Part shown: piece after piece, positions 35,039 to 54,863 of the stretch
How positions within the stretch are numbered: the first letter of the stretch is position 1
Layout: the number at the start of each line of letters is the position of its first letter
Assembly (NCBI RefSeq): GCF_022513585.1
Contig: NZ_JAKWBF010000014.1
Location: 1-64,000, forward strand
Length of the DNA stretch: 64,000 nucleotides
Source of the DNA: Gordonia gummivorans
Lineage (GTDB): Bacteria; Actinomycetota; Actinomycetes; Mycobacteriales; Mycobacteriaceae
Reading direction: 5' to 3'
The notes under the pieces: generated by a model
The model's input: the letters and a program-made list of their open reading frames with translations, nothing else
Told to the model about the DNA's origin: nothing
Database searches by the model: none
Program-made: the position numbers and the translations under genes

Positions 35039-38000
35039 TCAGTACCCGCTCGACCGCATCGGTGCCGGGTCGTACATGCCCGACCGTCGGGCGGTGCCGA
35101 TCTCCAACTGCGCCGGTGGTGCCGGTGCGATCTCGGTGAAGCGTTGCAGCCCACCCCAATCGCGGCCCCAGTTGTTGCGCAGGTACGTGGGCAGCAGCGT
35201 CGGATACAGCATCGCCTCGGTGATACCCAGTGGGCCACCGGCCTTTCCGGACATCCAGGTCTGGCTGTTCTTCCGGGTGGCCTCGGCGTCGGGCATGATG
35301 CGCCACTTGGGCACCTCGAGGACACCGTTGGCGACCTTCATCGGCTGCTGGCACGGGAACACGAATCCGGGCAGCCAGTCGATGAAGACCGGATCGGTGG
35401 TCCCGACAACCTCGTTGAGGGTGCCGAGTCGGCTCACCCGGGGTGGAGTGATGGCCACCCACTCGGCGGGTGCGGCTGACGTGTCCTCGACGACGACACG
35501 TACAACTGTCGCTCCACCCGGCGCGTCCGACAACGGGTATCGGAGGTTGCGCCAGATCGGGGCCTCGGCAACGTCGATCGGGGTCCGGATGCCCACGGGG
35601 ATCACCTTGCCCGACGCGTCGACGCGACCGTATTGGACCACCACCTTCTGGCCCGGATGGACGACGCCGATACCGTCGACGGCCTCGACCGATCCGGCCA
35701 CCGCGACGGTGAGGAGCGGGGCGTCGGCATCGCGGGGCGGCAGTTGATACCAGTCGGTGGTCAACGACGCTGTGCCCGAAGGAGATCCGTACGAGCCGAG
35801 CACCGGGGTCTTTGCCGGGTCGAGCCCGAAAGGCAGTCGGACGGTGGAGCCGTTGACGCCGCGGACACCACCCTTGCCGCCCTCGGTGCCGCCCTGCGCG
35901 GACGCGTTCTCCTCGTCGGAGGCTTCATCGGCGCCTGCGCCGGTCTGCGCGGTGTTCTGCGCCGAGGTGGTCGAATCCTGACCCTCGGTGGCGTCGACGG
36001 ACAACCGGTCGGGCACGCCGTCGGGTGTGAAACCGGTTGCGCGCGGACCGGATAGCGCTGCGGAGACGGTAGGCGGTTGCCGACCGTCGACCGCCGCGGG
36101 TGCGAGCACCCCGGCGGTGGGGTCGGCCTCGACGAGCACGTCGTTGGCGAGTCCGCACGAATTTCCGGTCAGTGCACGGGCATTCGACTTTGCCCACGAC
36201 CAGGAGTCGCGCTGCTCGTAGGCGCCCTTGATGAACGAGGCGACCATGAACAGCACCACGAAGCCGGCGATCACCGGCAGCGGTGAGAACTTGAGCTTCG
36301 AGTACCAGTGTTGGGAGTGGCCGGTCTTGGTCTGTTCGTCGACGTAGTCGTCGCGGAAGTGGAACCACAGGCCAACCAGGGCCGTGATCACCGCGAACAC
36401 CAGGAAGGTCCAGCCCAGCTTGATCGGACCGATCGACGGCGGACGATCCCACCACGGCACGCCGAAACTGCCGACGAACCACCACCCGTTGGTCCCGGCG
36501 AAGGACATGCCGGTGACCGCGAGTACCGCCGCGGCGAAGAAGGTGCGGTTGCGTCGCGAGCGCAGGATCGCCGGCGCCATCATCGCACCGGCCGCCGCGG
36601 CCAGGCCGGCCGCGATGCCCGCGTACACGCCGAAGTGGTGAGTCCACTTGGTCGGGGTGAACGAGATGAAGAACATGGTGCCCAGCGTGACCGCGACGAG
36701 CCGCCAGATCGGGGCGCGCGCAACGCCGTTCGGATGTTCGCGACGCAGCAGTCGCAGCAGCACGACCACCAGGCACAGGATCATCGTCAGCACGCCGAAG
36801 CGTCGTGCGAGGGTGCCGTCGGCGGTCGGCAGGATGAGGTAGTAGTAGCGCACCGGCTCTTGCCACCATTCCAGCGTCGGACCGACGTCGGTGGCCACCT
36901 GGTTACCCGCGACCAAGGGCATCAACGGTTGGTCGGCGAAGATCTGGAAGAGCACGGCCGTTCCGGCGGCCAGGATCGGTGCGAGCATGGGCAGCAACCC
37001 ATCACGACGCCGTCGGCTCACCAGGGTCTTGATGATCGGACGGATGCCCGCCAGCAGTGCGGCCACCGCCATCAGGCCGCCGGGTGCCAGTGCGAGGGTG
37101 AACGCGGCCGCGACCACCGCCACCGCGTAGGGGAGCAGTCGCCGCGTGGCGATGGCACGTTCGACGCAGCACCACGTCAGCAGCGCGCCGACGGCCTCGG
37201 CGGGTTCGGGACGCAGACCGTTGTTGTACGGCAACCAGATTGCGAGGAAAACGAATGCCGCCGACCACACCGCGGGTGTGCTGTTGCGTACGGCCCGGCC
37301 CAGCCGGGGAATGACCTCACGGCTGATCAGCCACCAGCCCAACAGCCCCAGCAGGAACGCGGGGAGCCGCATCCAGGGTGCCGACAGGCTGACGTGACTC
37401 ATCGCCGAGATCACCTGGAAATGCCAGCCGAACGGGTCCTGTGGGACGCCGAAGTACCGGAAATAGTTGTCGGCGTAGCCTGCTCCGCCGGTGATCCGCC
37501 CGACGATGAAGTTGTATCCGTCGTCGGACGTGTTGGCCCCCATGAACCACCAGAAGGCGAGAATCAGGAACACTGCGACGTCCGGACCGCGGATGGTCCA
37601 CCAACCCGACGGCAGGAATCGCCGGTGTCCCCGACCATCCCGTTGGTCGAGCATGCCGAGAGCCACCAGCGATCCGATGGTCATGAGGATGCCGAGGATG
37701 ATCACCGTCAGCTTGAGTGCCGTTGGCGTGCTCACGTATCGGGTGTCGATGGTGGCGTGCAGCGACAGTCCATCGCGCGCGGCGTCGGCCGGCAGATCGC
37801 TGTAGATGCCGACGATCTGCGGTCGCATCTCCTGGTCGGGGATCGAGAAGGTCACCTGGCCGTTGGCCGGGGTGGCGGCGACATTGTCGAATCGTGCGGT
37901 GACGCCGCTGCCGTCGGCGTGGAAGACGATGCGGCATTGCGGGTTCGACTGCGCAGCTGCCCGCGGGGTGTTGAGGATGACGACGTCGCGGTCGGTGACC

Positions 38001-38359
38001 GTGAGGGTATCGGCGGTGGCCCGGACGAACAGACCCCGGGCAGCGGAATCCTGGCCCTGTTCGGGGATGGTCGACAGCAGCACACCGCCGGCCGCCGGCA
38101 ACCGGGTGGCCAACGAACACGGAACCGTCACGTCCATGTCGATCGGCACATAGGACACCAGCGGAGCGGCGACATCCGAGACGGTGTCACCCTGCGGCCA
38201 GTTGAGTTCCGCGGTGGTCTGATTCACCGGAAGCAGCGGGGTCACGATCGCCATCAGGAATCCCAGCAGACCGGTGAGGACTGCGGCGATCTTGATGTTG
38301 CGGTAGTTGCGCGGCTTCGCGTCTTCGGTGGACCCCATGGTCGTGGTTGGCTCACTCAT
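35039..38359 (-). CDS. embB: Emb-type arabinosyltransferase, EmbB-like
   Basis: A 1106-residue GT-C arabinosyltransferase that extends or branches cell-wall arabinan from decaprenylphosphoryl-arabinose. First membrane helix at about 22-45, then a periplasmic jelly-roll domain (Cys81 and Cys142), the catalytic loop TSDDGYNF (Asp279-280), many helices, ISFTPTKWTHHFG, and a C-terminal carbohydrate-binding domain ending GTARRSGMYDPAPM. EmbB character: RYYYLILPTADGTLARRFG. The residue aligned with EmbB Met306 (M. tuberculosis, from memory) is Val. Its ATG lies 8 nt inside the preceding embA-like gene (ATGAGTGA), so it is translated with it. Confidence 0.93.
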   Translation of the reverse strand: MSEPTTTMGSTEDAKPRNYRNIKIAAVLTGLLGFLMAIVTPLLPVNQTTAELNWPQGDTVSDVAAPLVSYVPIDMDVTVPCSLATRLPAAGGVLLSTIPEQGQDSAARGLFVRATADTLTVTDRDVVILNTPRAAAQSNPQCRIVFHADGSGVTARFDNVAATPANGQVTFSIPDQEMRPQIVGIYSDLPADAARDGLSLHATIDTRYVSTPTALKLTVIILGILMTIGSLVALGMLDQRDGRGHRRFLPSGWWTIRGPDVAVFLILAFWWFMGANTSDDGYNFIVGRITGGAGYADNYFRYFGVPQDPFGWHFQVISAMSHVSLSAPWMRLPAFLLGLLGWWLISREVIPRLGRAVRNSTPAVWSAAFVFLAIWLPYNNGLRPEPAEAVGALLTWCCVERAIATRRLLPYAVAVVAAAFTLALAPGGLMAVAALLAGIRPIIKTLVSRRRRDGLLPMLAPILAAGTAVLFQIFADQPLMPLVAGNQVATDVGPTLEWWQEPVRYYYLILPTADGTLARRFGVLTMILCLVVVLLRLLRREHPNGVARAPIWRLVAVTLGTMFFISFTPTKWTHHFGVYAGIAAGLAAAAGAMMAPAILRSRRNRTFFAAAVLAVTGMSFAGTNGWWFVGSFGVPWWDRPPSIGPIKLGWTFLVFAVITALVGLWFHFRDDYVDEQTKTGHSQHWYSKLKFSPLPVIAGFVVLFMVASFIKGAYEQRDSWSWAKSNARALTGNSCGLANDVLVEADPTAGVLAPAAVDGRQPPTVSAALSGPRATGFTPDGVPDRLSVDATEGQDSTTSAQNTAQTGAGADEASDEENASAQGGTEGGKGGVRGVNGSTVRLPFGLDPAKTPVLGSYGSPSGTASLTTDWYQLPPRDADAPLLTVAVAGSVEAVDGIGVVHPGQKVVVQYGRVDASGKVIPVGIRTPIDVAEAPIWRNLRYPLSDAPGGATVVRVVVEDTSAAPAEWVAITPPRVSRLGTLNEVVGTTDPVFIDWLPGFVFPCQQPMKVANGVLEVPKWRIMPDAEATRKNSQTWMSGKAGGPLGITEAMLYPTLLPTYLRNNWGRDWGGLQRFTEIAPAPPAQLEIGTARRSGMYDPAPMRSSGY

Positions 38360-41300
38360 CCGCCTGCGGCTCCACCCTGATCGAACTGCTTCGCGACCAA
38401 CCCCATTGCGTCATCTGCGTTGTCTCCACACGTGCCGGCGGTGCCCCCGTCGCCAGCGGGGTGAGTCGTTCCAGCGCACCCCAGTCGCGCGCCCAGTCGT
38501 CCTTCAGATAGGTCGAGACCGCCTGCGGTGTGGTCATGGACTCCGAGATCGACAGCAGGCCACCGTCTCTCGCGGCCTGCCACGTCTTGGACTGAGAGTT
38601 GGCGAGCGGGTAGTCGGGCAGGATGCGCCACTGCGGCACCTCGGCGACGCCGTGCGACACCTGCATCGGTCGCTGACATGGGAAGTGCGCGGCCGCGCTG
38701 AAGTCGATCAGGGTCGGCGCCGCGGACCCGACGACGGCCTGCAGACTTTGCAGTCGTGGCGCGCGCGGCGGCGTGATGCCGATGAACTGGTACTGCCCGA
38801 GGTTGTTGTCCAGCAACGACAGTCGCAGCAACGACGCGGCGGGCGGTGCCGCGGCCATCGGCACTCGGAGATTGCGCCACGACCGGTTGGTGATCACCGG
38901 TCCCGGATCGATCGGCAGCACGTCGGGGCCGACCTGGACGAAGGTGCCACCGGGTCCCGGCCTGCCGAACTGCACAACGAGTTTCTGGCCGAAGTTGCGC
39001 ACCCCGAAGGTGTCGATGGTCGACACCGCACCCGCGGTGCTGAACACCAGGAGCGGCGAAACCGCTCTGTTGGTGGGCAATTCGTAGGCACCGGTGGTCA
39101 GTCGCGCTTCACCGACGTGGCCGTAGCTACCCAGCACCGGAGTCGTCTTGGGGTCGAGCCCGAAGGGCAGCAACACATTCGAGCCGTTGACGGTCGTCGG
39201 GCCGACGCCGCCGGTGGTGCCCGCGCCCAGGCCGCCGGTGATCGAGAACGGTTTGGCGAAACTGGCCGCCACATTCATCTGACCCGGACGTTGACTACCC
39301 GGTTCGGGCGACAGGTTCAGCGGAATCCCGTCGGGGGTGAACCCCACCGAACCGGTGCCGGTGAGCGCAGCGGTCGCCGACAATCCGCCGGCCGGCGTCA
39401 GCATGCCCGCATTCGGATCCTGTTCCACCAGAACCTCGTCGGCCATTGCACAGCTGTTGCCCCGCAGTGCGTCGACGTTCTCGGAGAACACGGTGACCGC
39501 GGGATAGCGCGTCACCGCGGCCTTGGCGAACACAAGCAGTTCGGCGACCACCATGAGTCCGGCGATCACCGCGATCGGCGACGACGCGAGGAACAGGCGG
39601 CGGCGGTCGGCTTTGCTCTCGCCCGGCCCGTCGGTGGTGTGTGCCAGGCCCTTGTTCTCGACGTAGTCGAGTCGCAGGTGCTGCCAGACCGCGATCGCGG
39701 CGGTGATGATCGCGAGAATCAGGAACATCGTCGACGCCCCGTATCCGGCGATGACCGGCGCGCGGTCGAACCAGGAGATGCCGTACTCGTAGACGAACGG
39801 CCACGCGTTGTAGCCGGCGAGCGCCGCGGCGAGGGCGAAGCACAGGCCGGACACGAACACGGTGAGGTTTCGCGCCGAACGCGCGGCCGACTGGGCGACC
39901 GCCAGCGTTGCGGTCGCCGCGATCGCCGCCGCGAGACCGGCCAGCACACCGAACTGGACCGTCCACTTGGTCGGGGTGAACGCGAACAGCAGCAGCGTGA
40001 CGCCGATGGCGCCGACGAGGCGCCACGCCGGACCGGGCGTGACACCACGGATGCGGCCGCGCCGCAGCATCACCGCGACGGTCACGATCAGACCGGCCAA
40101 CAGCAGCAGCAACGGCACCCGGCGGGTGAGTGCGCCGTCCTCGGTGGGAACGGTGATGAAGTAGTACCGCAGGAACTCCTGATGCCAGCCGATCACCGGC
40201 CCGATCTGGTAGCGCAGCTTCATCGCCTCGGCGACCGTCGCCAGTGTCTGATCGCGGAAGACGACCACCATGACCAGCATCCCGGCGGCTGCGATCGGAG
40301 CGATGAGCGCCAGGGTGCCGGTGATGCCGCCACCCGCCTCCCGGCGCCGGGAGCGAAGCGAGCGGGCCGAATCACGACGGTCCAGCAGGATGTGCAGCAG
40401 CGGGCGTGCAGCGACCAGCAGGATGGCCACGCCGATCACGCCATGCGGCGCGAGAGCCAGGGTGAACGTCGCCGCGATCGCGGCGAGTGCCGCCGGGAGG
40501 AGGCGTCGTGTGTCGATGGCCTGCTCGGCGGCCCACCAGGTGAGCAGCGACCCGAGCACGATGATGCCCTCGCTGCGCAGGCCGCTGCAGTAGGGCAGCC
40601 AGAACGCGGTGAACGTCAACGCGGCCGCCCAGAGTGCCCAACCGCTCGACCGAACCGTCGCACCGAGCCGGGGCAGCAGCACGCGACTCAGGATGAACCA
40701 CGACGCCAGCCCCGCGATCAAGGCCGGGATGTGCATCCACAGGATCGACGGCGACACCGCCGCCCAATGGGCGAGGAAGCTGTAATACCAGTCGAACGGC
40801 GCTTCGGGGATGCCATAGAAGCGGTAGTAGTTGGCGAGGTAGCCGAATCCGTCGGCCGTGCGGCCCATGTTGAGGATGTAGCCGTCGTCGGGGCTGCCGG
40901 CGCCCAGGAGGAGCCAGATCAGAAGCACTGCGGTAACTACGACGTCGGTCAGCCGAGGACGCAGGGACGACCACCACGGGCCGGTGCGATGCGGTCGGCG
41001 AACGGTCGGCGCGTCGAACCGATCGAGCAGGTAGAGCGCAACGAGGGCGACGAGCACGCACAGCACCGCGAGCACCATCACGATCAGCTTCAGCACCGAC
41101 GGCGAGCTCTCGTAGCGGTTGTCGATCTGTACGTGCACTGCCAGCCCTGTGGCGGCCCGTACCGCGGCGGTGGGTACTGCGGTGAACACACCGTCGACCT
41201 GCGGGCGTTTGTCGGGCGGCAGACCCGTCGGGCGCGCTTGCCCGAGTCCGACGAACTGCGCACCGACGCCGGTGGCCGACCAGATGCGCAGTTCACTGCA

Positions 41301-41759
41301 TCGCGCCAGGTCGGCGCGGGAGGCCGTCGCGGCGACGGTGTTGCGGAAGGTCACGGTCACCGCGTCTGCGGTCGCCGTGACGAACAAGGCCGACGCCTTG
41401 GCCTTGGGGGCGTTCGCCGGCATGGTCGCCAGGATCACGCCGCCCTCGCGAGGCAGCGCCGGAAGGATGGTCGACCTCAGCGTCGTACAGGGAATGGTGA
41501 CGTCCAGGCTCCGCGGCGTCTGGGCGATCAGTGGGGCCGTCACCGAGGCGGTATCGGCGGAAAGCGGCTGGTTGCGCGGCCAGTCGAAGGATGCGTCGGT
41601 GGCTTTCACCGGCAGCAGCGGGGTCAGCGCGCACAGGATCACACCGAGTACACCGGCGACGATGGCCACGGTTGCGGCCGTGCCCACCGAGACCCGACCG
41701 GAATCGGTGCCGGTCGGTTGATCTGCTGCTGACGCAGAGGTCGGGGCTGTCACAGGCAC
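38352..41759 (-). CDS. embA: Emb-type arabinosyltransferase, EmbA-like
   Basis: A 1135-residue GT-C arabinosyltransferase with the family layout: periplasmic jelly-roll with Cys91 and Cys154, catalytic SPDDGYILNM (Asp291-292), FTPTKWTVQFG, and a C-terminal carbohydrate-binding domain. EmbA character: VVFRDQTLATVAEAMKLRY and WHQEFLRYYFI. The frame is open upstream (ATG 41801 and beyond) without a ribosome site. GTG 41759 is chosen because TACCAT lies exactly 8 nt before it, as at embC. It is first gene of the embA-embB pair and divergent from a second pair. A short Arg/Ser-rich stretch (about residue 555) has REP-like base composition. Confidence 0.92.
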   Translation of the reverse strand: MPVTAPTSASAADQPTGTDSGRVSVGTAATVAIVAGVLGVILCALTPLLPVKATDASFDWPRNQPLSADTASVTAPLIAQTPRSLDVTIPCTTLRSTILPALPREGGVILATMPANAPKAKASALFVTATADAVTVTFRNTVAATASRADLARCSELRIWSATGVGAQFVGLGQARPTGLPPDKRPQVDGVFTAVPTAAVRAATGLAVHVQIDNRYESSPSVLKLIVMVLAVLCVLVALVALYLLDRFDAPTVRRPHRTGPWWSSLRPRLTDVVVTAVLLIWLLLGAGSPDDGYILNMGRTADGFGYLANYYRFYGIPEAPFDWYYSFLAHWAAVSPSILWMHIPALIAGLASWFILSRVLLPRLGATVRSSGWALWAAALTFTAFWLPYCSGLRSEGIIVLGSLLTWWAAEQAIDTRRLLPAALAAIAATFTLALAPHGVIGVAILLVAARPLLHILLDRRDSARSLRSRRREAGGGITGTLALIAPIAAAGMLVMVVVFRDQTLATVAEAMKLRYQIGPVIGWHQEFLRYYFITVPTEDGALTRRVPLLLLLAGLIVTVAVMLRRGRIRGVTPGPAWRLVGAIGVTLLLFAFTPTKWTVQFGVLAGLAAAIAATATLAVAQSAARSARNLTVFVSGLCFALAAALAGYNAWPFVYEYGISWFDRAPVIAGYGASTMFLILAIITAAIAVWQHLRLDYVENKGLAHTTDGPGESKADRRRLFLASSPIAVIAGLMVVAELLVFAKAAVTRYPAVTVFSENVDALRGNSCAMADEVLVEQDPNAGMLTPAGGLSATAALTGTGSVGFTPDGIPLNLSPEPGSQRPGQMNVAASFAKPFSITGGLGAGTTGGVGPTTVNGSNVLLPFGLDPKTTPVLGSYGHVGEARLTTGAYELPTNRAVSPLLVFSTAGAVSTIDTFGVRNFGQKLVVQFGRPGPGGTFVQVGPDVLPIDPGPVITNRSWRNLRVPMAAAPPAASLLRLSLLDNNLGQYQFIGITPPRAPRLQSLQAVVGSAAPTLIDFSAAAHFPCQRPMQVSHGVAEVPQWRILPDYPLANSQSKTWQAARDGGLLSISESMTTPQAVSTYLKDDWARDWGALERLTPLATGAPPARVETTQMTQWGWSRSSSIRVEPQADE

Positions 41760-41894
41760 GATGTCTGATGGTAAGCGAGATGCCTGAGAGCACCTACTCA
41801 TGTAGGTCAGATGGCCGTGAGAGGGCGAGCGCAGCGACGAGGTTTGCCACCGGTACCGATCGAGCGTTCCGCTCTCCACTAGGGTCACCAACTG
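41760..41894. promoter_or_regulatory. 135-bp divergent promoter region between two embAB pairs
   Basis: On the minus strand TACCAT (complement of 41768-41773) ends 8 nt before the GTG of embA. On the plus strand TAGGGT (41880-41885) ends 9 nt before the ATG of the second embA-like gene. Neither gene has a Shine-Dalgarno sequence, so both may be leaderless. Any operator here could control both pairs at once. Confidence 0.5.
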
Positions 41895-44800: not shown

Positions 44801-45212
44801 ACCGCCCCGGGCCCCGCAGGTGAAGACGTTGCAAGACGTCGTCGGCTCGGAAATGCCGGTGCTGCTCGACCTTTCGGTGGGCAGCCAGTTCCCGTGCCAG
44901 CGTCCGATGGCGACCCGCAACGGCGTGATGGAGGTGCCGTCCTGGCGGATCGTGCCCGATCAGGTCACCACCAACTCGAAGTCCAAGACCTGGCAGGCGG
45001 CGATCAACGGCGGCATCCTCACCACCTCCGAGGCGCTGACCACCGCCGACACCGTGGCGACCTACTTGGACAACGACTGGTATCGGGATTGGGGTGGGCT
45101 GCAGCGGCTGACCCCGCTGGAGATGTCGCCGGCTCGGGTGACGACGGGGGAGAAGACGACGTGGGGCGTGAGCCGCTCGGGACCGATCAGGGTGGTGCCG
45201 CAGGATGACTGA
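41895..45212 (+). CDS. Emb-type arabinosyltransferase, second EmbA-like paralogue
   Basis: A 1105-residue GT-C arabinosyltransferase, paralogous to the gene at 38352-41759. Shared EmbA-type blocks include SDDGYILNMGR (Asp288-289), NYYRFHGIPEAPFDWYYSFLAQW, VVFRDQTLGSMAEALRIRY and FTPTKWTVQFG; the C-terminal domain ends WGVSRSGPIRVVP. Oddity: the two N-terminal cysteines kept by all four other Emb proteins here are both gone (VTIPC to ITIGG at 80-84, ARCSEL to ARTERL at 150-155), so the jelly-roll disulfide is lost. The ATG probably begins a leaderless transcript. The stop overlaps the next gene by 8 nt. Confidence 0.92.
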   Translation: MTTDSAAAADTPATPTDGATSTSRRWALTAVVAGIVAVAAAILTPLLPVTEHTASISWPQETDSSVVSPLVTQTPAGLDITIGGTTLRRAVENGETTPRAGTARFVLVSTMPVQAPGAMDKGLFVTTGPDGVLVSLRGKELLRVPRADLARTERLHVWSTATMIDARAVGAGRTGSAGPSDLPQVSGVFTDMEPIGVRNSVRDGLAVRVDIDNRFDTSPTVLKLLVMILGILAAVLAFVATAVLDVRGGYHRRVGRIDWRRLFRPRVADLAVTAVLVVWHFLGAGSSDDGYILNMGRNGSDAGFLANYYRFHGIPEAPFDWYYSFLAQWSTISTAGIWMRLPALVGGLVSWFILSRVLLPRLGGAVRRSQWAMLTAAAVFVAFWMPLCSGLRSEGIIVLGSLLTWWGVEQAIATRRMLPAASAALAALATVALAPHGVIAIALLIAGSRPMLRIIRRRRGEHGVAPLVAGIAAAAAVVVIVVFRDQTLGSMAEALRIRYTVGPTLAWYQELLRYYFLSLTTPDGSLVRRVPLLLFLAALFVTMAVLLRRKHIRGVDRGPVWRLIGAVLLTVLLLSFTPTKWTVQFGIYAGVAAAMTAVATVAVASAARRSPRNLWMYIAVLLFASAVAAAGKNAWGWAYDFGIAWFDKAPTIAGIQLSSILLVLTVIALAVAVWFHVRIDVDAERGVVRDARESRWQTAIASSPMLVIATALVLVELLLFAKAAATRLDTYTTFSANIHALAGNTCGMADDVLVEDDPNRGALQPVGTTDISKALAGESTGFTPDGVAPDLLPDPTSLGAGTINTSGDLSRPFVVSGGPPGTIGGSGPVGVNGSRVKLPFGLKPETTPVLGSYGHDNETAELTSDWYRLPPKDSSPLLVITAAGPVFSVDQDGVPQAGRSLKVQFGRAEGNSFVPMGPGYVPIDPGPVRPNRPWRNLRIPMDAVPAGATAMRIVAEDNNVSPDEWLAFTPPRAPQVKTLQDVVGSEMPVLLDLSVGSQFPCQRPMATRNGVMEVPSWRIVPDQVTTNSKSKTWQAAINGGILTTSEALTTADTVATYLDNDWYRDWGGLQRLTPLEMSPARVTTGEKTTWGVSRSGPIRVVPQDD

Positions 45213-48200
45213 CCAACGTCTCCGAATTGCACGCATTGTCGCGGTCGTCGCCGGACTTCTCGGTGTGCTGCTTGCCTTCTCCGCGCCGTTCCTCCCGGTG
45301 TCCTATACCAAGGCCGAACTCAACTGGCCGCAAGAGGACGCGGCCGGTAATCCCGTGGTGCGCAACGTCGCCGCGCCCAACGTCGCGTATGTGCCGGTGT
45401 CGATGGACATCTCGGTGCCCTGTGCGCTCGGTGCGCAACTACCGGCCGCGGGCGGCGTGCTGTTGTCGACGGTGCCAGAGAACGGCGCCGAGGCAGGCAC
45501 CGTCGGACTGTTCGTCCGGGCGACCGCAGAGCGACTCAACGTCACCCAGCGCAACGCCGTACTGCTCAGTGTTCCGCGCGCGCAGGCGCAGCAGAACCCG
45601 CAGTGTCGCATCGTCATTCATTCCGACACCAGCGGCACGCGCGGCGCGGTCGAGGGGATGACGTCCGACGCCGGGGTGACGAGTTTCGACCTCGCCGATC
45701 CCAATGCGCGCCCGCAGATCATCGGCGTGTACACCGACCTCCCGAGAACCGCGTCGACCGAAGGGCTTTCCTACCGGTCGACGATCGACACCCGGTTCAG
45801 CACGAGCCCCACCACCCTCAAGGGTCTTGCGCTCATCGCCGGCATCCTCTGCACGCTTGCGTCGTTGATCGCACTCGCCGTGCTCGACGCGCGAGACGGC
45901 CGTCGACTGCGAAAGCTGCTGCCCGCGCGGTGGTGGCGCCCACGGCTGGTCGACGTCGTGGTCGGTGGAGTTCTGCTGGTCTGGATGTTCATCGGCGGCA
46001 ACACCGCCGACGACGGTTACCAGGTCACCGTCGGACGTGTGGCGCCCGGGGCGGGGTATCTCGACAACTACTACCGCTACTTCGGTGCGCCACAGGACCC
46101 GTTCGGTTGGCACTACCAGTACCTGTCCCTCTGGATGCAGGTCAGCACCGCGACACCGTGGCTTCGGCTGCTGCCGTTCCTGTTTGCGCTGGCGGGCTGG
46201 TTCCTCATCAGCCGTGCCGCGATCCCCCGGCTCGGCCGGGCGGTGAGTACCTCCAACGCCGCGATCTGGGCCGCCGGCCTCGGCTTCCTCGCGGTGTGGC
46301 TGCCGTTCAACAACGGTCTGCGGGTCGAACCCGCACTGTCGGTGGGCATCCTGCTGACCTGGGTCCTGGTGGAGCGGGCCGTCGCCACCGGCCGCCTGTT
46401 CCCGTTGAGCCTTGGCATTATCTCCGCCGCCTTCACTCTCACGATTCATCCGGCCGGCGCCATCGCGGTGCTGCCACTGCTGGCGGCACTGCGCCCGATC
46501 CTCAAGCGCCTCCGCGAACGAGGCCGACGCGACGGATATCTGCCGACCCTGGTGCCACTGCTGGCGGCCGGATTCGCGGTGCTGTTCGAGATCTTCGCCG
46601 ACCAGTCGCTCGCGTCGATCATGGAGGGCGTCGAGGTACAGGGCATCGTGGGCCCCACCAACAAATGGTGGACCGAGGCGATGCGCTACTACATCCTGTT
46701 GAACCCGACGCCGGACGGTTCGATCGCACGCCGGGTGGGCATCTTCGTCACGATCCTCGCGGTGATCATCATCGTGCTCACGCTGTTGAGCAAACGTCGC
46801 GTGTCGCGGATTGCCAGCGCACCGCTGTGGCGTCTGGTCGCGGTGACCTCGGGTGCGGTGGCGGTGCTCGCGTTCGTGCCCACCAAGGCGACCCACCAGA
46901 TGGGTGCCTTCGCCTGTCTCACCGGTGTTCTGGCGGCTGCGGCGACCGCTCTGCTGGAGCCCTCGGTGATGCGACGACGCTGCAATCGCACGTTTGTCGC
47001 GGCGGCAGCCGCGTACGCGCTCGCAGTGACCTTCGCCGGGCGCAACCAATGGTGGTACGTCGGCAGCTACGGCATCCCGTGGGGTGACGACACGCCCAAC
47101 GTGCGCGGCATAGGACTATATGTGCCGATCCTTCTGGTTGCCGTCGGACTGACCCTGTACGGAGCCTGGCAGTACTACCGCGACGACCGGCTGGCCGAAC
47201 GCGGTGAGGTGCCCGCCTTCTCGGTGCACGATGCGGGGCGCACCCATCGGCTGCTCCGTCGCGTACCGACGTACTCGCTGGCGATCATCTCCGCCGTCGT
47301 ACTCGCCTTCACCTTCGTGTCGTTCGCGAAAGCCATCTCCACCCAGCGTGATTCGTGGTCGTGGGCGAGTTCCAACGTCGACGCGATGCGCGGGAACCCA
47401 TGCGCCCTGGCCGACGCGGTCCTCGTCGAGAAGGACCCCAACACGGGTCTGCTGGCACCGGCTCGCGTTGCAGGGCAGAACAATCCGTCTCCCGGTGCAG
47501 CGCTGGCCGGACGTGGCATGGTCGGGTTCGACCCCAATGGCGTGTCGTCGCACCTGGAAAGCGACTCGGAGGGCGACGACAACGAGAACACCGAGGTCGA
47601 CCGCACCCAGACCGATCCGAATGCGGCACAGCAGGAACCCAGCGGCACCGCCGGTTCCGCCGACACCGGCGGCGGGACAACCACGTCCAAGGGCGTGAAC
47701 GGGTCGATGGTCAAACTTCCGTTCGGCCTCAACCCGCAACTGGTCCCGGTGCTGGGAACCTACGGGACCCCAACGGGTCTCGGCCACCTGCAGTCCGACT
47801 GGTACCAACTCCCGGCGCGGGGCGCGGACCGTCCGCTTGTCACCATGTCGGTGGCCGGAAAAGTCGAGTACATCGACGAACTCGCCGTGCGCCATCCGGG
47901 TCAGAAGCTGCGGCTCGAGTTCGGCCGGGTCGAGCCGGACGGTCGGGTCACCACCGTTGCATCGATGATCCCGCTCGACCTCGACGCCGCACCCGAGTGG
48001 CGCAACCTGCGCTTCCCGCTGGACCAGGCGCCGCCGCGCGCGACGGTGGTGCGCGTCGTCGCCGACGACACCTCGGCCGACCAAGCGCAGTGGCTGGCCG
48101 TCACACCGCCCCGGGTGTCGAACCTGGTGACGCTGAATTCGCTTGTCGGTGGCGAAGATCCGGTGCTGCTCGACTGGGAGGTGGCCTTCGCCTTCCCGTG

Positions 48201-48513
48201 CCAGCGTCCGGCGTCGGTCCACAACGGGGTTCTGGAGACCCCGATGTGGCGCATCACCCCCGACGCCGAAGGCGAGCGCGTGAACTCGCGCCGCTGGATG
48301 GCCGGTGACTACGGCGGCCCGCTCGGCATCGTGGAGAACGAATTGCGCCCGACCGTCCTGCCGGCCTATCTCCGCAACGACTGGGCCAAGGACTGGGGCA
48401 GTCTGCAGCAACTGACTCCGCTGAAACCGCAAGTGCCCGCCCAGATCGACCTCACCGAGGACGTCCACTGGGGCTGGTGGACACCCGGACCGATGCGCGC
48501 GGTCAAGAACTGA
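45205..48513 (+). CDS. Emb-type arabinosyltransferase, second EmbB-like paralogue
   Basis: A 1102-residue GT-C arabinosyltransferase. It has a first helix, a jelly-roll domain with Cys73 and Cys134, catalytic NTADDGYQVTV (Asp269-270), NYYRYFGAPQDPFGWHYQ, RYYILLNPTPDGSIARR, and the more divergent FVPTKATHQMG where relatives have FTPTKW. An acidic Thr/Asn-rich insert (about 785-830) precedes the C-terminal carbohydrate-binding domain, which ends HWGWWTPGPMRAV. It pairs with the EmbB-like gene at 35039 and likewise has Val at the Met306-equivalent site. The 8-nt overlap ATGACTGA with the upstream gene mirrors the other pair. Confidence 0.92.
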   Translation: MTDQRLRIARIVAVVAGLLGVLLAFSAPFLPVSYTKAELNWPQEDAAGNPVVRNVAAPNVAYVPVSMDISVPCALGAQLPAAGGVLLSTVPENGAEAGTVGLFVRATAERLNVTQRNAVLLSVPRAQAQQNPQCRIVIHSDTSGTRGAVEGMTSDAGVTSFDLADPNARPQIIGVYTDLPRTASTEGLSYRSTIDTRFSTSPTTLKGLALIAGILCTLASLIALAVLDARDGRRLRKLLPARWWRPRLVDVVVGGVLLVWMFIGGNTADDGYQVTVGRVAPGAGYLDNYYRYFGAPQDPFGWHYQYLSLWMQVSTATPWLRLLPFLFALAGWFLISRAAIPRLGRAVSTSNAAIWAAGLGFLAVWLPFNNGLRVEPALSVGILLTWVLVERAVATGRLFPLSLGIISAAFTLTIHPAGAIAVLPLLAALRPILKRLRERGRRDGYLPTLVPLLAAGFAVLFEIFADQSLASIMEGVEVQGIVGPTNKWWTEAMRYYILLNPTPDGSIARRVGIFVTILAVIIIVLTLLSKRRVSRIASAPLWRLVAVTSGAVAVLAFVPTKATHQMGAFACLTGVLAAAATALLEPSVMRRRCNRTFVAAAAAYALAVTFAGRNQWWYVGSYGIPWGDDTPNVRGIGLYVPILLVAVGLTLYGAWQYYRDDRLAERGEVPAFSVHDAGRTHRLLRRVPTYSLAIISAVVLAFTFVSFAKAISTQRDSWSWASSNVDAMRGNPCALADAVLVEKDPNTGLLAPARVAGQNNPSPGAALAGRGMVGFDPNGVSSHLESDSEGDDNENTEVDRTQTDPNAAQQEPSGTAGSADTGGGTTTSKGVNGSMVKLPFGLNPQLVPVLGTYGTPTGLGHLQSDWYQLPARGADRPLVTMSVAGKVEYIDELAVRHPGQKLRLEFGRVEPDGRVTTVASMIPLDLDAAPEWRNLRFPLDQAPPRATVVRVVADDTSADQAQWLAVTPPRVSNLVTLNSLVGGEDPVLLDWEVAFAFPCQRPASVHNGVLETPMWRITPDAEGERVNSRRWMAGDYGGPLGIVENELRPTVLPAYLRNDWAKDWGSLQQLTPLKPQVPAQIDLTEDVHWGWWTPGPMRAVKN

Positions 48514-49031: not shown

Positions 49032-50999
49032 TCAACCAACAGGAGCCGGGCGGTCACGGGTCGGCCACGCCCGCGGTGACAGCAGGCGAAGTCCGTTGAG
49101 TGCGACCAGGATTGTCGAGCCCTCGTGTCCGGCCACGCCGAGTGGCAACGGTAGATGGCCGACGAGATCCCAGGTAACCAGGACCGCGATGAAGGTCGCG
49201 GCGATGGCGAGGTTGGCGATGACCACCCGCCGTGCGCGTCGGGCAAGGGCCAGCAGTGCGGGTACGGCGTCGAGGTCGTCGCGGACGATCACCACGTCGG
49301 CGGTGGCCAGAGCGAGGTCGGCGCCCATGTGGCCCATGGCGATTCCGATGTCCGCGGTGGCGAGGGCAGGTGCGTCGTTGATGCCGTCGCCGACCACAGC
49401 AACTCGGGATCCCCGGCCCTGGAGGTCGCGGACCGCGTCGACCTTGTGCTGCGGCAAGAGATCGGCGCGGACTTCGTCGATACCGACTGCCGGCGAAATG
49501 GATTGAGCGGCCGCCTTGTTGTCGCCGGTCACCATGATCGGGGTGCTGCCGGTCACCGAGGTCAGTGTGGAGATGGCGGACGCGGCTTCGGGCCGGATTC
49601 GATCGTGCAAGCCGATGACACCGATCGGGTGTCCGTCATCGAGGACTGCCACGCTGGTTCCGCCGGCGTCGTCGATGCGCACGCGCGAGCGGCTGACGCG
49701 CGAGTCTCCGAAAATCTGTGTGGCGTTGAGGACTTCGACCGTCCGGCCATCGAGTGACGCACGCACCCCTCGCCCCGGTAGCGCAGCGAAGTCGGCGACC
49801 GCGGCCACCCTGATCTCCCGTTGAGCTGCGGCTTCGACGATGGCGCGACCCAGCGGATGCTCACTGTCGTTCTCGGCGGCGGCAGCGATTGCGAGGACCT
49901 GGTCGGGGTCGTGGGTTTCGTCGAGGGCGACGATGTCGGTCACGACGGGCTGTCCGGTCGTGATGGTGCCGGTCTTGTCCAGGGCGACCAGATCGATGTC
50001 GGCCAGCTTTTCCATGGCCACAGCGGATTTCACCAGGACGCCGCGTCGGCCTGCGGTGGCGATCGCCGAGAGCAGCGGCGGCATGGTGGCCAGCACGACG
50101 GCGCATGGCGACGCGACGATCATGAAGGTCATGGCGCGCAACAGAGTTGGCTGTAGCTCGGCGCCCGTGGCCAGTGGGATCGCGAACAGCGCCACGGTGG
50201 CGGCAACGACCGCGATCGAGTAGACGCGCTCGACCTTCTCGATGAACAGTTGCGTTGTCGCTTTGGTCGCACTTGCCTCGCCGACCATCGCGACGATACG
50301 TGCAACCACGGTGGCCTCGGGGTCGGTTCCCACCTGCGCGCGTAATGCGCCGGTGCCGTTGAGGGTTCCGGCGTAGACGGTGTCGCCGATCGCCTTTGCC
50401 ACCGGGAGTGGCTCGCCGGTGATGGAGGACTGGTCGACGTCGCTGGCGCCGTCGAGGACCGTGGCGTCGGCCGCGATCCGCTCTCCCGGCCGGATGACGA
50501 TCACTTCGCCAACCGTCAACCTTGCTGCGTCGACCGTGGTCTCGGTGCCATCGGCATCGATTCGGGTGGCCTGATCGGGTGCGAGGTCGAGCAGGTTGCG
50601 TACGGAGTCCTCGGTGCGCCGGGTGGCCACGTCCTCGAGGGCGCCCGACGTGGCGAAGATGACGATCAGCAGCGCGCCGTCGAAGATCTGTCCGATCGCG
50701 GCGGCGCCGATGGCAGCGACGATCATCAGCAGGTCGACATCGATTATCCGGTGACGAAGCGCGGTCAGACCGTCGCGCGCGGACTGCCATCCGCCCGTGG
50801 CGTAACACGCCAGGTAGAGCGTCCACATCAGCCAGTTCGGCCCGCCGGCCACCTGCATCACCAGTCCGCAGACGAACAGGACGGTCGCGGCCGTCGCCCA
50901 CCGCACCGAGCGCACCGCCCAGACGTCCGACCACCAGCGGCGTCCCGAGTCGCCGGTGGTGACAGCTCGCGAGGGGGACAGGAGTGTCGCCTCAGACAT
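49032..50999 (-). CDS. ctpJ: P1B-4-type metal-exporting ATPase, CtpJ-like
   Basis: A 655-residue heavy-metal P-type ATPase. There is no N-terminal metal-binding domain; helices start at about residue 30. The actuator TGEP loop (SSITGEPLPVAK) is at about 192, the intramembrane metal motif is SPC (297-299) and the phosphorylation site is DKTGTITTG (Asp341). The C-terminal helix carries AGHEGSTILVALNGLRLL; SPC plus HEGST marks the P1B-4 group, exporters of cobalt, with ferrous iron or nickel also reported. ATG 50999 is 60 bp from the divergent NmtR-type gene, the arrangement expected for the nmtR-ctpJ system. TATTCT lies 7 nt before the ATG, so translation may be leaderless. Confidence 0.88.
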   Translation of the reverse strand: MSEATLLSPSRAVTTGDSGRRWWSDVWAVRSVRWATAATVLFVCGLVMQVAGGPNWLMWTLYLACYATGGWQSARDGLTALRHRIIDVDLLMIVAAIGAAAIGQIFDGALLIVIFATSGALEDVATRRTEDSVRNLLDLAPDQATRIDADGTETTVDAARLTVGEVIVIRPGERIAADATVLDGASDVDQSSITGEPLPVAKAIGDTVYAGTLNGTGALRAQVGTDPEATVVARIVAMVGEASATKATTQLFIEKVERVYSIAVVAATVALFAIPLATGAELQPTLLRAMTFMIVASPCAVVLATMPPLLSAIATAGRRGVLVKSAVAMEKLADIDLVALDKTGTITTGQPVVTDIVALDETHDPDQVLAIAAAAENDSEHPLGRAIVEAAAQREIRVAAVADFAALPGRGVRASLDGRTVEVLNATQIFGDSRVSRSRVRIDDAGGTSVAVLDDGHPIGVIGLHDRIRPEAASAISTLTSVTGSTPIMVTGDNKAAAQSISPAVGIDEVRADLLPQHKVDAVRDLQGRGSRVAVVGDGINDAPALATADIGIAMGHMGADLALATADVVIVRDDLDAVPALLALARRARRVVIANLAIAATFIAVLVTWDLVGHLPLPLGVAGHEGSTILVALNGLRLLSPRAWPTRDRPAPVG

Positions 51000-51036
51000 A
51001 TGTAGAAGAATACACATGTAGATATGTACATATATT
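50996..51036. promoter_or_regulatory. Palindromic NmtR-type operator overlapping both promoters
   Basis: ATATGTACATAT (51022-51033) is a perfect 12-bp palindrome overlapping a TATATT -10-like box (51031-51036) for the regulator gene. ACATGT (51014-51019) and ACATATGT (50996-51003) are further A/T-rich palindromes on the side of the ATPase gene, whose own -10-like TATTCT is the complement of 51007-51012. A/T-rich ATATG/CATAT half-sites suit ArsR-SmtB regulators. One dimer or several could repress both genes. Confidence 0.65.
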
Positions 51037-51058
51037 AGGGATGTGGTTGACTGCATTC

Positions 51059-51415: not shown

Positions 51416-51436
51416 GCTGGCGAGTCCAGTCGTCGC

Positions 51437-51515
51437 CTCGCCAGGGGCTTCGAGGCTCGTCGCTAGCGCTCCTCATACCTCAGCCAGCGGGAGGTCGCTC
51501 CTCGCACCACAGCCG
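51437..51515. repeat. REP-like repeat after nmtR
   Basis: A REP copy in inverted orientation (GGGGCTTCGAGGCTCGTC...GCTCCTCATACCTCAGCC) followed by a fragment (GCTCCTCGCACCACAGCC). It lies in the 112-bp convergent gap between nmtR and embC. Confidence 0.75.
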
Positions 51516-51527
51516 GCGGGGAAGCCG

Positions 51528-54500
51528 CTACTGCCGGATCGGCGCCGGGCTCCACAGCCCGCTGCGGACCGCGGTACCGGTCTGGATGTCGGCTTCGGTC
51601 GTGACGCCGCCGTACGGGTCGTAGCGTTCGAGCGCTCCCCAATCGCGTCCGATGTCGCCCTGTAGGTAGGTGGCAAGCGCCGTCGGCTTCTGGGACACCT
51701 CGAGCCAGCCGAGCGGTCCGCCGCCGAACGAGTCCTGCCACGCCGAGACGGCGGCGGCGAGGTCGGCGCCCGGCTTGATCCGCCACTGCGGAATCTCCGC
51801 CACGCCCACATTGTGGGAGAACGGACGCTGACACGGGAACGCCAGACCCGACGTCCAGTCCACCTGGACCGGATCCTCACGCCCGACGACGTCTTGCAGG
51901 GTCTTCATCTTCGGCAGGCGAGGCGGGGTGACGACGATGAACCGGTCCTCGGACAGATTGTCGTCGGTCGCGACGATGCGCACGGCAGTGGTGTCGGGCG
52001 GGAGTTCGTCGGTGTTGTAGCGCAGGTTTCGCCACGACGGGCGCGGTCCCGGATCGATGAGTTCGGTGTCGCCTGCAGGCTTGAGGTCGGCGTCGCGGGT
52101 GGCCGGTCCGATCGGGTCGGAGGTGTACTGCAGCGTGAGATTGGGGTTGTCGTATTCGCCGGCCACCGACATCGTCAACAGTGGTCGGTCACGCCAATTC
52201 GGTGGCAGCGCATACCATCCCGAGGTGAGTCGGGCCGGGACCTGATCGGTGAGCGAGTAACTGCCCATCACCGGGGTCCGCGCGCGGTCGAGGAAGAACG
52301 GCAGCGGCACATGGCTTCCGTTGACCCCCGCGACCGGTAGCGGATCGCCGCCGCCGGTGGCGCCGGGGTTGGAGTTGAGGACGTCGGGCGAGCCCGCCAC
52401 GTTGCCGGCCAGCACGCCGAGCGAGCCCTCACTTGCGGTGCTCGACAGGTCGTCGGGGACGCCGTCGGGGGAGAAGCCGACGGTGCCCGGCGCGAGATTG
52501 GTACCCGGCGCCGGTGAGGGACCACCGAGTGGATTGGCCAGGGTGGCGTCGACGGGCGTGAGCATGTCGCGGCTGGGGTCTTCCTCGACCCACACCATGT
52601 CGGCCATGCCGCATTCGTGGCCGGCGAGCGCCTCGAGGTTCGACCGCGGCGTCGAGAACGAACTGCTCTGGTGAATCCCGGAGAACACCGCGGTGATGAT
52701 CTCGAAGACGACCACGGCCGCGGCGACGTAGGCCAGGGGCGCTGCCGCCATCGAGCTGCCAAGACGTCGGTACGCGCGTGCATGTGTGGGGGCCGCGGTC
52801 TCGTCCGCCGGATCGGTCCCGGTGAACGGTTCGCGGAAGTGGAACCACAGGGCAACCAAGAGCAACAGCAGCGATGCGTAGAGCAGCAGCTGCCCCAGCA
52901 TGAGCCCGCCGATGGTGACCTGGCTGATGCCCCACGGCATGCCCCAGGACGAGTAGTAGTAATACGAGTTCGGCGCGGTGAAGGCGACGCCGGTGATGAA
53001 CAGCACGAGTGCGGCGAACAGCGTGCGATTGCGCCGCGAATGCATGGCCTGGTGGCTCGCCGCGATGGCGGCGATCGCGGCCAAAGCGGCGGCGAGCCCA
53101 GCGAACACACCGAAGTGATGGGTCCACTTGGTCGGCGTGAACATCAGGAAGACGAGCGACGCGAAGGTGATGCCGACGATCCGGCGCGACGGACCCAAAG
53201 CCGTTCCCGGGATGCGCGATTTGCGGATCAGCACGGCCGCGGACACGACCATCGCGATGATCATCGTCAGAACCGCGAAGCGACGCGCGATCGAGCCGTC
53301 GGCGGAGAACGCGAACAGCGCGCTGTAGCGGTCGATCTCGCTGAACCAGTGTCGGGACGGTCCAATCGCACTCTTCATCGTCGACGCCTCGAGGAATGAT
53401 CGCAGCGTCAGATTGGAGAACACGACGAAGACGACGAAGGTCCCGGCGGCCACGATCGGCGCGATCAACGCGACATACGACCACGCCCCGTTGCCGATGG
53501 CGCGGGCCCGTTTGATGAGCGCCATGATCATCGGCCGTGCGCCGGCGATCAGGGCGGCCACCGCGAGCACGCCGGTCGGCCCGGCCGCCAGGCTGAACGC
53601 GCCGATGAGACAGGCCACCGCAGCCGGGAGCAGTCGGCCCGTGGCGATGGCTCGTTCCACCGAGCACCAGGTGAGCAGTGCGCCGAGGCAGATGATGGGC
53701 TCGGGCCGCAGGCCGTTGTTGAACGGGAACCAGAACGCGAGGAAGACGAAGGCGGCGGTCCAGTTCACCGACGTCCGGGTGAGTGCCGCACGTCCGAGGC
53801 GCGGCAGGACCTCGTGGCTGACGATGAGCCACACCAAGATGCCGCAGATCAGCGCGGGCAGCCGCATCCACGGGCTGGCAACGGAGACATGGCTGAGCAG
53901 CCCGAACACCTGGTAGTACCAGCCAAACGGTGCCTCTGGTGCACCGAACCAACGGAAGTAGTTCGCGGTGTAATCCGTGTGCTGGGCGACCCGCGACATC
54001 GTCAGCAGGTACCCGTCGTCGGACGTGTTGGGGCCGATCATGTGCCAGACGACGAGCGCGCCGATCACCACATAGTCGCGCGCGTTGAGGTGCCACCATC
54101 GGGCCGGCAGGAAGCGCCGATGGCGCCGGCCGTCGGTGGAGTCGAGCACGGCCAGTGCAGCCAACGACAACAGCGTCGCGATGACGCCGACGATCACGAC
54201 CAGCCACTTCAGCACCGTCGGCGCCGTGTTGTATCGGGAATCGATGGTGACGTGCGCGCTGAGTCCGGCGACGTCGGCGGCCGGGCCCGACAGATCGGTG
54301 AACAGGCCGGTCACCTGCGGTCGCTGGTCGGGGAAGTACTCGTACTGGTCCTTGGTGGACGTCGACCCCATGAGCGGCTGCCCGTCGGGGCCGCGCATGC
54401 CGACGAACTCCGCCGACACGTCGTCGGCGTCCGCGTGCACCACGATCTCCCGGCAGTCCTGCGACCGGACGTCGGCCAGGGTCGCCGACGCCAGCGGCAC

Positions 54501-54863
54501 ATTGCGGTTGACGACTTCCACGGTGCGACGATCGGCGGGCTGATCCGGCGTCCCGGTGACGCGGATGAACAGGCCGCGCTCGCCGCTCTTCTCGGCCTGT
54601 TTCGGCGTGGTCGACAGCAGTACCGACTGGTCGCCGGAAAGACGGTCGACGGCCGAGCAGGGCACCGAGAAGTCCAGGTCGATCGGGACATAGCTGATCA
54701 GGGGGGCCGACACCGACCCGATCTGCCCCTCTTGCGGCCAGCTGATCTCGGCGGTCGTCTGCTTGACCGGCATCAGCGGGGTGGCGAGCGCCATGAACAG
54801 CCCGAGCAGACCGGTGACGATCGCGACGAGTTTGGCTCGTCTCACGGTCGGGGCTGATGGCAC
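51528..54863 (-). CDS. embC: Emb-type arabinosyltransferase, EmbC-like
   Basis: A 1111-residue GT-C arabinosyltransferase. It has a first helix at about 10-32, a jelly-roll domain (Cys69, Cys137), catalytic NTSDDGYLLTMSR (Asp282-283), NYFRWFGAPEAPFGWYYQ, FTPTKWTHHFGVFAGLA and a C-terminal domain ending GTAVRSGLWSPAPIR. EmbC character: LTWCSVERAIATGRLLPAAVACLIGAF and RYSALFAFSADGSIARRFAVL. EmbC elongates arabinan, especially that of lipoarabinomannan. The frame is open upstream; GTG 54863 is preferred because TACCAT lies 8 nt before it, as at embA (ATG 54890 is the alternative). Unlike in M. tuberculosis it is not next to aftA; it stands alone, divergent from aroQ. Confidence 0.92.
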   Translation of the reverse strand: MPSAPTVRRAKLVAIVTGLLGLFMALATPLMPVKQTTAEISWPQEGQIGSVSAPLISYVPIDLDFSVPCSAVDRLSGDQSVLLSTTPKQAEKSGERGLFIRVTGTPDQPADRRTVEVVNRNVPLASATLADVRSQDCREIVVHADADDVSAEFVGMRGPDGQPLMGSTSTKDQYEYFPDQRPQVTGLFTDLSGPAADVAGLSAHVTIDSRYNTAPTVLKWLVVIVGVIATLLSLAALAVLDSTDGRRHRRFLPARWWHLNARDYVVIGALVVWHMIGPNTSDDGYLLTMSRVAQHTDYTANYFRWFGAPEAPFGWYYQVFGLLSHVSVASPWMRLPALICGILVWLIVSHEVLPRLGRAALTRTSVNWTAAFVFLAFWFPFNNGLRPEPIICLGALLTWCSVERAIATGRLLPAAVACLIGAFSLAAGPTGVLAVAALIAGARPMIMALIKRARAIGNGAWSYVALIAPIVAAGTFVVFVVFSNLTLRSFLEASTMKSAIGPSRHWFSEIDRYSALFAFSADGSIARRFAVLTMIIAMVVSAAVLIRKSRIPGTALGPSRRIVGITFASLVFLMFTPTKWTHHFGVFAGLAAALAAIAAIAASHQAMHSRRNRTLFAALVLFITGVAFTAPNSYYYYSSWGMPWGISQVTIGGLMLGQLLLYASLLLLLVALWFHFREPFTGTDPADETAAPTHARAYRRLGSSMAAAPLAYVAAAVVVFEIITAVFSGIHQSSSFSTPRSNLEALAGHECGMADMVWVEEDPSRDMLTPVDATLANPLGGPSPAPGTNLAPGTVGFSPDGVPDDLSSTASEGSLGVLAGNVAGSPDVLNSNPGATGGGDPLPVAGVNGSHVPLPFFLDRARTPVMGSYSLTDQVPARLTSGWYALPPNWRDRPLLTMSVAGEYDNPNLTLQYTSDPIGPATRDADLKPAGDTELIDPGPRPSWRNLRYNTDELPPDTTAVRIVATDDNLSEDRFIVVTPPRLPKMKTLQDVVGREDPVQVDWTSGLAFPCQRPFSHNVGVAEIPQWRIKPGADLAAAVSAWQDSFGGGPLGWLEVSQKPTALATYLQGDIGRDWGALERYDPYGGVTTEADIQTGTAVRSGLWSPAPIRQ

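Follow-up and report, generated by a model that had tools for sequence, protein, structure and literature searches.

A second, deeply diverged embA-embB pair in Gordonia that may pass between species

Introduction

The assembly of arabinan by the Emb arabinosyltransferases is the target of ethambutol, and the site at which EmbA and EmbB act has been described as debated, direct evidence having been lacking (PMC6053596). The window analysed here, a stretch of 64,000 nucleotides from Gordonia gummivorans (positions 1 to 64,000 of contig NZ_JAKWBF010000014.1, assembly GCF_022513585.1), holds five emb genes, including a core pair, embA1-embB1 (A1B1), and an accessory pair, embA2-embB2 (A2B2), placed head to head. 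Where did the second pair come from, and what might it do? An earlier note on this DNA had proposed that an embAB unit was duplicated locally and then inverted around a shared promoter. On balance, we think it likely, with real room for doubt, that A2B2 is a functional, dispensable and laterally exchanged second EmbA-EmbB arabinosyltransferase which alters arabinan structure. No description of a second embAB pair in Gordonia was found among the literature matches listed (titles and abstract beginnings, with subscription papers thinly covered), and a search for Gordonia together with embC, embA and embB gave no match.

Results

Two EmbA-EmbB pairs in one locus

A PF04602 profile scan of the whole source genome (5.31 Mb in 111 contigs, the window lying on contig 18) gave five matches, every one inside the window and in an open frame, with scores of 570-683 bits against a curated cut-off of 25 and coverage of the full domain; no Emb model was matched in an NCBIfam scan. 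The five translations (Table 1) are free of internal stops, and each carries a DDGY motif with a PTK motif further on, together with the catalytic D285/D286 and the pocket residues R389 and E391. Residue numbers are those of Mycobacterium smegmatis EmbB (PMC7341804), transferred by alignment, with W972 and W1012 placed by hand past the alignment end; the roles of pocket and acceptor residues are taken from PMC7341804 and PMC7305291.

Against solved structures, which aligned with the window proteins over almost their whole length, EmbA1 matched EmbA best (918 bits; best non-EmbA 719), as did EmbA2 (862 against 754); the top structures of both were 7bvc_A/7bvf_A, and both proteins fell inside the A clade. 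For the EmbC protein the best match was EmbC, at 1056 bits compared with 824 for EmbB (top structures 7bve_A/7bvh_A), and Gordonia and Williamsia EmbC formed one clade in a FastTree set whose rows held no named mycobacterial EmbC. The two EmbB assignments need more care: M. smegmatis EmbC scored marginally ahead of EmbB both for EmbB1 (951/924 bits) and for EmbB2 (797/784), and as these pairwise scores slightly favour EmbC, the two are called EmbB for their operon position and their place in the trees. In FastTree, B1 and B2 fall in a single clade together with the genes at the embB position of Williamsia and of genome G065 (the B rows of genera g58 and g59 were included in the B-only tree alone). 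The five full-length Emb proteins that the earlier note had reported, two EmbA-like, two EmbB-like and one EmbC-like, with two separate A-B units, are thus borne out by profile, structure, tree and operon position, and both A-like proteins group with EmbA and both B-like ones with EmbB. The head-to-head layout is not an assembly fault, since 17 of the 59 Gordonia genomes share it, four of them on a single contig (G025, G027, G028 and G036).

An early split between the pairs

FastTree analysis of 296 of the 297 Emb rows recovered Gordonia A1, A2, B1, B2 and C each as monophyletic, with support of 0.77 for A1 and 0.999-1.0 for the others; the dropped row repeated part of a G013 gene because the loci overlapped, and Emb frames of fewer than 900 aligned residues were excluded from trees. 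For A and B alike, in FastTree and in the separate IQ-TREE trees, the proteins of Williamsia and G. jinhuaensis joined the first Gordonia copy and left the second outside. The IQ-TREE trees were built from a subset of chosen rows (48 for A, 49 for B and 43 for A+B concatenated), and in the A+B tree pair 2 together with one related genus, g12 (support 97), stood apart from Gordonia pair 1 with Williamsia (90). A duplication confined to Gordonia, modelled by constraining every Gordonia copy to a single clade, was rejected in the approximately unbiased (AU) test by A+B (p-AU 0.00014) and by B alone (p-AU 0.018). The concatenated trees thus place the split between A1B1 and A2B2 before the separation of Gordonia and Williamsia.

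These results bear directly on the origin proposed in the earlier note. A recent, in-place duplication in the window lineage, with inversion around a shared promoter, would have left two nearly redundant pairs acting through dosage, and the pairs do share their gene order and an 8-nt A-B overlap and lie adjacent in the window. However, A1 and A2 are on average only 54% identical within genomes (47 genomes) and B1 and B2 51% (46 genomes), whereas A1 and B1 of the window average 62% and 67% identity to ten Williamsia-type proteins. Moreover, the pair has three placements in Gordonia, the holders of the inverted one form no single clade by housekeeping proteins, and the overlap is ancestral (see below). 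With the A+B trees, the AU test and the identities all against it, this origin is rejected and retains very little credence.

An origin from a distant donor, which the earlier note had named as the contrary case, fares no better. The acidic residue that faces the donor arabinose in EmbB, E313, is replaced by Gln in EmbB1 (58/58), EmbB2 (47/47), the Williamsia-type and G. jinhuaensis B proteins (10/10) and the single g12 B protein, and in no other of 346 Emb rows, among them three g58 and two g59 B proteins; all four groups also carry Tyr in place of W308 and no longer have the Met of M292. In a search with EmbB2 of 401 genomes of the family, in which two candidates were scored per genome, the best non-Gordonia protein among the matches listed was 55% identical. 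Because the Gln of EmbB2 at E313 recurs only in the EmbB proteins of Gordonia, Williamsia and a single related genus, a distant import is unlikely and was rejected; judged by these residues, A2B2 arose either as a paralog within this EmbB stem or, as a xenolog, from a closely related lineage, for instance g12. One Williamsia-type embB, 52% identical to EmbB2 as the Williamsia records are, stands under the title Kitasatospora arboriphila NRRL B-24581; either that title or the culture is probably wrong. Genera g59, g51 and g4 have extra Emb genes remote from the main cluster, which are not of A2B2 type by their best blastp match among the five window proteins.

One pair per genome, three layouts

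The second pair is present in 49 of the 59 Gordonia genomes, always singly, and absent from ten, and the number of emb genes per genome is three or five, never four or six. Six genomes first counted with six PF04602 matches have five genes with split matches, and a sixth emb piece on another contig of G003 was taken as the remainder of embB1. Genomes without the pair measure 3.0-4.5 Mb and carriers 3.3-6.6 Mb. No second pair was found in the ten Williamsia-type and G. jinhuaensis genomes examined.

Sorted by hand from the emb positions, the carriers fall into three layouts. The inverted one, with embA2 head to head with embA1, occurs in 17 genomes, with embC on the far side in 16 and on a separate contig in G052. 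In the tandem layout (15 genomes) A2B2 follows embB1 in the same orientation, about 2.2-2.6 kb past it in 12 genomes (the two such loci checked gene by gene have Dps-like and DICT-domain genes in between), directly after it in G020 and G033, and a further 3 kb on in G026. The remaining 17 genomes have A2B2 elsewhere, on another contig or tens of kb to Mb away. Individual loci show further irregularities: embA1 of the G016 draft (contig 53) appears as two pieces, each in its own frame, embA2 of G047 (contig 1, ~360196-363689) is split across two frames, and in G024 and G050 embC and embA1 stand 8-9 kb apart, with dehydrogenase and other unrelated genes in between.

Conflict between the pair and other genes

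The pair tree covered 46 of the 49 carriers (G032, G047 and G048 lack a full A2 or B2 frame), the core C+A1+B1 tree 56 of the 59 Gordonia genomes with two outgroups (G003, G016 and G041 left out), and a set of four unlinked housekeeping proteins, rpoB+ileS+gyrB+leuS, 27 of the 59 with three outgroups (gyrB missing for G064); rpoB alone was weakly resolved. Two lineages of A2B2 were fully separate in the pair tree: lineage I, with 11 + 3 tandem and three sputi-group holders, and lineage II, with 13 remote and 16 inverted holders. By single rows, A2 numbered 18 in lineage I and 30 in lineage II, and B2 18 and 29, and A2 and B2 agreed on lineage in all 46 carriers with both in the tree. Residue W578 of EmbB2 follows the same division, being Ala in 29/29 lineage II and Trp in 18/18 lineage I proteins; W578A was accordingly dropped as a general mark of EmbB2.

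The pair tree does not match the relationships of its hosts. A single clade of inverted, tandem and sputi-group holders was rejected by the pair tree (p=1.9e-9) and accepted by the four housekeeping proteins (p=0.60), which in turn rejected monophyly both for the inverted holders (p=0.005) and for those of lineage I (p=0.012); the core C+A1+B1 proteins also rejected a clade of lineage-I holders (p=0.00046), and their tree nested the tandem groups among inverted-type genomes. Because the two pair lineages conflict with four unlinked housekeeping proteins, we infer that A2B2 has probably been exchanged between Gordonia species, with replacement, as the simplest account.

The main rival to exchange is hidden paralogy, in which an ancient duplication before the Gordonia-Williamsia split left two ancestral A2B2 paralogs that were inherited purely vertically and sorted by exactly reciprocal losses and rearrangement into the three layouts. 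This account would predict the same deep split and the same two lineages, but none of the 49 carriers keeps both lineages, lineage I occupies at least three contexts, and the complementary pair would have had to be lost exactly many times over. In addition, the nested tandem-type genomes have no Emb remnant in their searchable embC-embA1 spacers. Across the 42 non-inverted genomes the spacer, measured from aligned starts, is 42-255 bp long in 31 and 1.3-8.7 kb long in 11; no Emb remnant was found in the spacers searched, those of 150 bp to 9 kb, the sole strong match being G016's own broken embA1. We regard vertical paralogy as a minority possibility and continue with exchange as the better account.

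Among 19 proteins neighbouring the pair, Pfam identified one IS110-type transposase (beside embB1 in G036) and one DUF222/HNH nuclease (between embB2 and embC in G034), the others being metabolic, regulatory, transport or nuclease proteins or without a family; no arabinan-related partner was found among the 19. The transposase gene of G036 (L008 516-1556) lies about 330 bp past the end of embB1.

Separate candidate promoter elements and an inherited junction

Upstream of the emb genes, a pattern of leaderless spacing (TANNNT, 6-9 nt, then ATG or GTG, within 60 nt of the aligned start) was found before embA1 in 58/59, embA2 in 44/48 and embC in 59/59 Gordonia cases, and before embB1 and embB2 in 0/58 and 0/49; means in shuffled sequences were 1.5-3.6. 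The element also backs the GTG start of embA1. A conventional sigma-70 search across the 135 bp that separate the embA start codons of the window found nothing. The pattern fits three separate units, embC, embA1B1 and embA2B2, with leaderless transcripts, and leaderless emb transcripts may be general in Gordonia, given the hexamer before every embC. The single shared promoter proposed earlier for the 135-bp region gives way to two separate -10-like elements, one directly ahead of each embA start; since A2B2 carries its own element, the region looks like two back-to-back promoters, each beside its own embA.

The 8-nt overlap ATGASTGA is indeed present at both A-B junctions of the window, as the earlier note had observed, but its use as a sign of duplication does not hold: Williamsia (G067) and G. 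jinhuaensis (G064), the two single-embAB genomes tested, have the overlap too, and it is therefore ancestral.

Residues and selection in EmbB2

D286, R389 and E391 occur in all 269 Gordonia Emb rows and D285 in all except one A2 row, and EmbB2 keeps D285/D286, R389, E391 and the acceptor-path residues W504, W972 and W1012 in 47/47 proteins and W505 in 46/47. With Gln in place of E313, the donor pocket of Gordonia EmbB differs from that of mycobacterial EmbB. A further change, H581Q, distinguishes the copies, being present in 47/47 EmbB2 and 0/58 EmbB1 proteins; it adjoins the donor-pocket histidine H580, which is reported to shift upon ethambutol binding (PMC7305291).

The ratio of nonsynonymous to synonymous substitution rates (dN/dS) for A2 and B2 was 0.03-0.12 in nine hand-picked close species pairs, compared with 0.02-0.18 for the core genes. 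A2B2 is under strong purifying selection. Selection like that on the core genes indicates that the pair is maintained and, with its altered pocket, probably active. Structures from M. smegmatis and M. tuberculosis show EmbA and EmbB as heterodimers (PMC7341804, PMC7305291). In Gordonia, embA2 and embB2 are adjacent and co-inherited, with no -10 element before embB2; these features would be consistent with a second EmbA-EmbB heterodimer, which may give a different arabinan. The use of the two pairs for different arabinan structures, suggested in the earlier note, is plausible.

The chief role of EmbA2-EmbB2 could instead lie not in a new arabinan structure but in tolerance of ethambutol-like inhibitors that competitors produce. 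EmbB1, EmbB2 and Williamsia EmbB all have Val at M292 of M. smegmatis (M306 of M. tuberculosis) and Gln at E313, and M306 is described as the commonest ethambutol-resistance site (PMC7305291). The Val of EmbB2 and its changes beside H580 would suit such a role; however, since core EmbB1 has the identical Val and Gln, a second pair would add little tolerance, and we consider this role improbable.

Other features of the locus

Table 1. Emb genes, candidate promoter elements and aftA in the window
Feature	Position	Strand	Basis
embB1, core EmbB-type arabinosyltransferase, 1106 aa	35039..38359	-	PF04602, translation; clusters with Williamsia EmbB
embA1, core EmbA-type arabinosyltransferase, 1135 aa, GTG start	38352..41759	-	PF04602, EmbA structures, tree
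-10-like hexamer TACCAT, 8 nt ahead of embA1 start, leaderless type	41768..41773	-	Pattern scan
-10-like hexamer TAGGGT, 9 nt ahead of embA2 start, leaderless type	41880..41885	+	Pattern scan
embA2, EmbA-type, accessory pair, 1105 aa	41895..45212	+	PF04602, EmbA structures, trees
embB2, EmbB-type, accessory pair, 1102 aa; H581Q and W578A	45205..48513	+	PF04602, trees, alignment
embC, 1111 aa, GTG start	51528..54863	-	PF04602, EmbC structures, tree
-10-like hexamer TACCAT, 8 nt ahead of embC start	54872..54877	-	Pattern scan
aftA, priming arabinofuranosyltransferase upstream of embC, core-cluster neighbourhood	58493..60460	-	PF12250, PF12249

The position of aftA upstream of embC is also the order of the mycobacterial cluster. 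In the window a gene for a heavy-metal P-type ATPase (49032-51056, minus strand) sits between embB2 and embC; it is absent from eight other inverted-type loci inspected gene by gene with both ends present, where there is mostly a short gap or, in G034, the DUF222/HNH gene.

Discussion

Taken together, these observations suggest the following course. A2B2 and the core pair would have parted before the Gordonia-Williamsia split, and among the genomes examined only Gordonia would have retained or acquired A2B2. Since then the two genes would have moved together among Gordonia species, each carrier holding a single pair; in the window lineage the pair lies inverted within the embC-embA1 spacer, and the tandem-type species, nested among inverted-type ones, have the other pair lineage downstream of embB1. 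As a self-contained accessory operon with its own putative leaderless-type promoter, embA2-embB2 could supply, alongside the core embC-embA1-embB1, a second working heterodimer that draws on decaprenyl-phosphoryl-arabinose. Because EmbB2 is changed beside the donor-pocket histidine (H581Q, and W578A in one lineage), it would most likely add or branch arabinan with an outcome in site, frequency or acceptor unlike that of the core pair, and the arabinogalactan or the arabinan of lipoarabinomannan (LAM) in the holders would be changed accordingly.

Several results weigh against this reading. EmbA alone leaves a Gordonia-only duplication unrejected (p-AU 0.10), and the tree program flagged joined long branches among the outgroups of the A, B and A+B trees. 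The housekeeping and core trees conflict on the sister status of the two tandem groups. The changed residues of EmbB2 were located by sequence alignment. Transfer is read from tree conflict, and repeated losses from two ancient A2B2 paralogs could look similar, though no genome retains both. Finally, the placement of A2B2 relative to g12 hangs on one long-branched genome (G069), and it is here that a further origin has to be weighed, namely entry of A2B2 into Gordonia as a xenolog from a poorly sampled lineage near g12. The g12 A, B and A+B sequences group with A2B2 in IQ-TREE, with support of 85, 94 and 97 in the Shimodaira-Hasegawa-like approximate likelihood ratio test (SH-aLRT), g12 EmbC branches outside Gordonia and Williamsia, and none of the ten Williamsia-type and G. 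jinhuaensis genomes has a second pair. On the other side, a single genome with a branch of 0.67-0.71 may be subject to attraction, FastTree sets g12 B on the B1 side instead (0.41) and g12 A with A2 at 0.30, and embAB of g12 lies in an ordinary embC-embA-embB cluster. Such an entry is a tentative alternative that deserves more weight than vertical paralogy, while a functional pair exchanged within the genus remains our preferred reading.

A bolder extension is that A2B2 acts as an exchangeable arabinan-type cassette, swapped as surface serotypes are, perhaps under pressure from D-arabinanases of phages or predators; we hold this to be rather unlikely. An endo-D-arabinanase of Gordonia phage GMA6 is described as active on mycobacterial arabinogalactan, and D-arabinanase genes are reported in Mycosynbacter amalyticus, a predator of Gordonia (PMC10115798), while genes for arabinogalactan synthesis and modification are said to matter for phage infection in Corynebacterium glutamicum (PMC9671496). 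These two sources make phage or predator pressure on arabinan possible, and neither is evidence for the Gordonia pair.

Gordonia offers a natural experiment, with a complete second EmbAB that has fixed pocket changes and is present or absent among relatives that all keep the core pair. The cell-wall arabinan of Gordonia may exist in exchangeable versions, which suggests that a core cell-wall polymer, beyond outer antigens, can vary via gene exchange. Tools that read arabinan, such as LAM antibodies, and work on Gordonia phages would be affected; some LAM antibody pairs are reported to cross-react with Gordonia bronchialis (PMC6258851).

Compared with known systems, the Gordonia proteins share with Mycobacterium embCAB, where EmbA-EmbB is a heterodimer and EmbC a homodimer, the full-length family, the DDGY and PTK motifs and the tryptophans of the C-terminal domain, and differ in the extra, deeply diverged embAB operon. 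Relative to mycobacterial EmbB, E313 is replaced by Gln, M292 by Val and W308 by Tyr in the EmbB proteins of Gordonia, and EmbB2 adds H581Q and, in lineage II, W578A. C. glutamicum has the same family in a single gene, as against three or five in Gordonia; its Emb is reported to polymerise alpha(1-5) arabinan and to be closer to embC (PMC6053596). The embCAB clusters of Williamsia and G. jinhuaensis are nearest to the core Gordonia A1B1, with the same EmbB substitutions and (in G064 and G067) the same 8-nt overlap, but without the second pair. O-antigen and capsule loci provide one slot per genome for alternative, laterally exchanged versions; the Gordonia unit differs from them in that it consists of two enzymes acting on a core cell-wall polymer and in its varying position.

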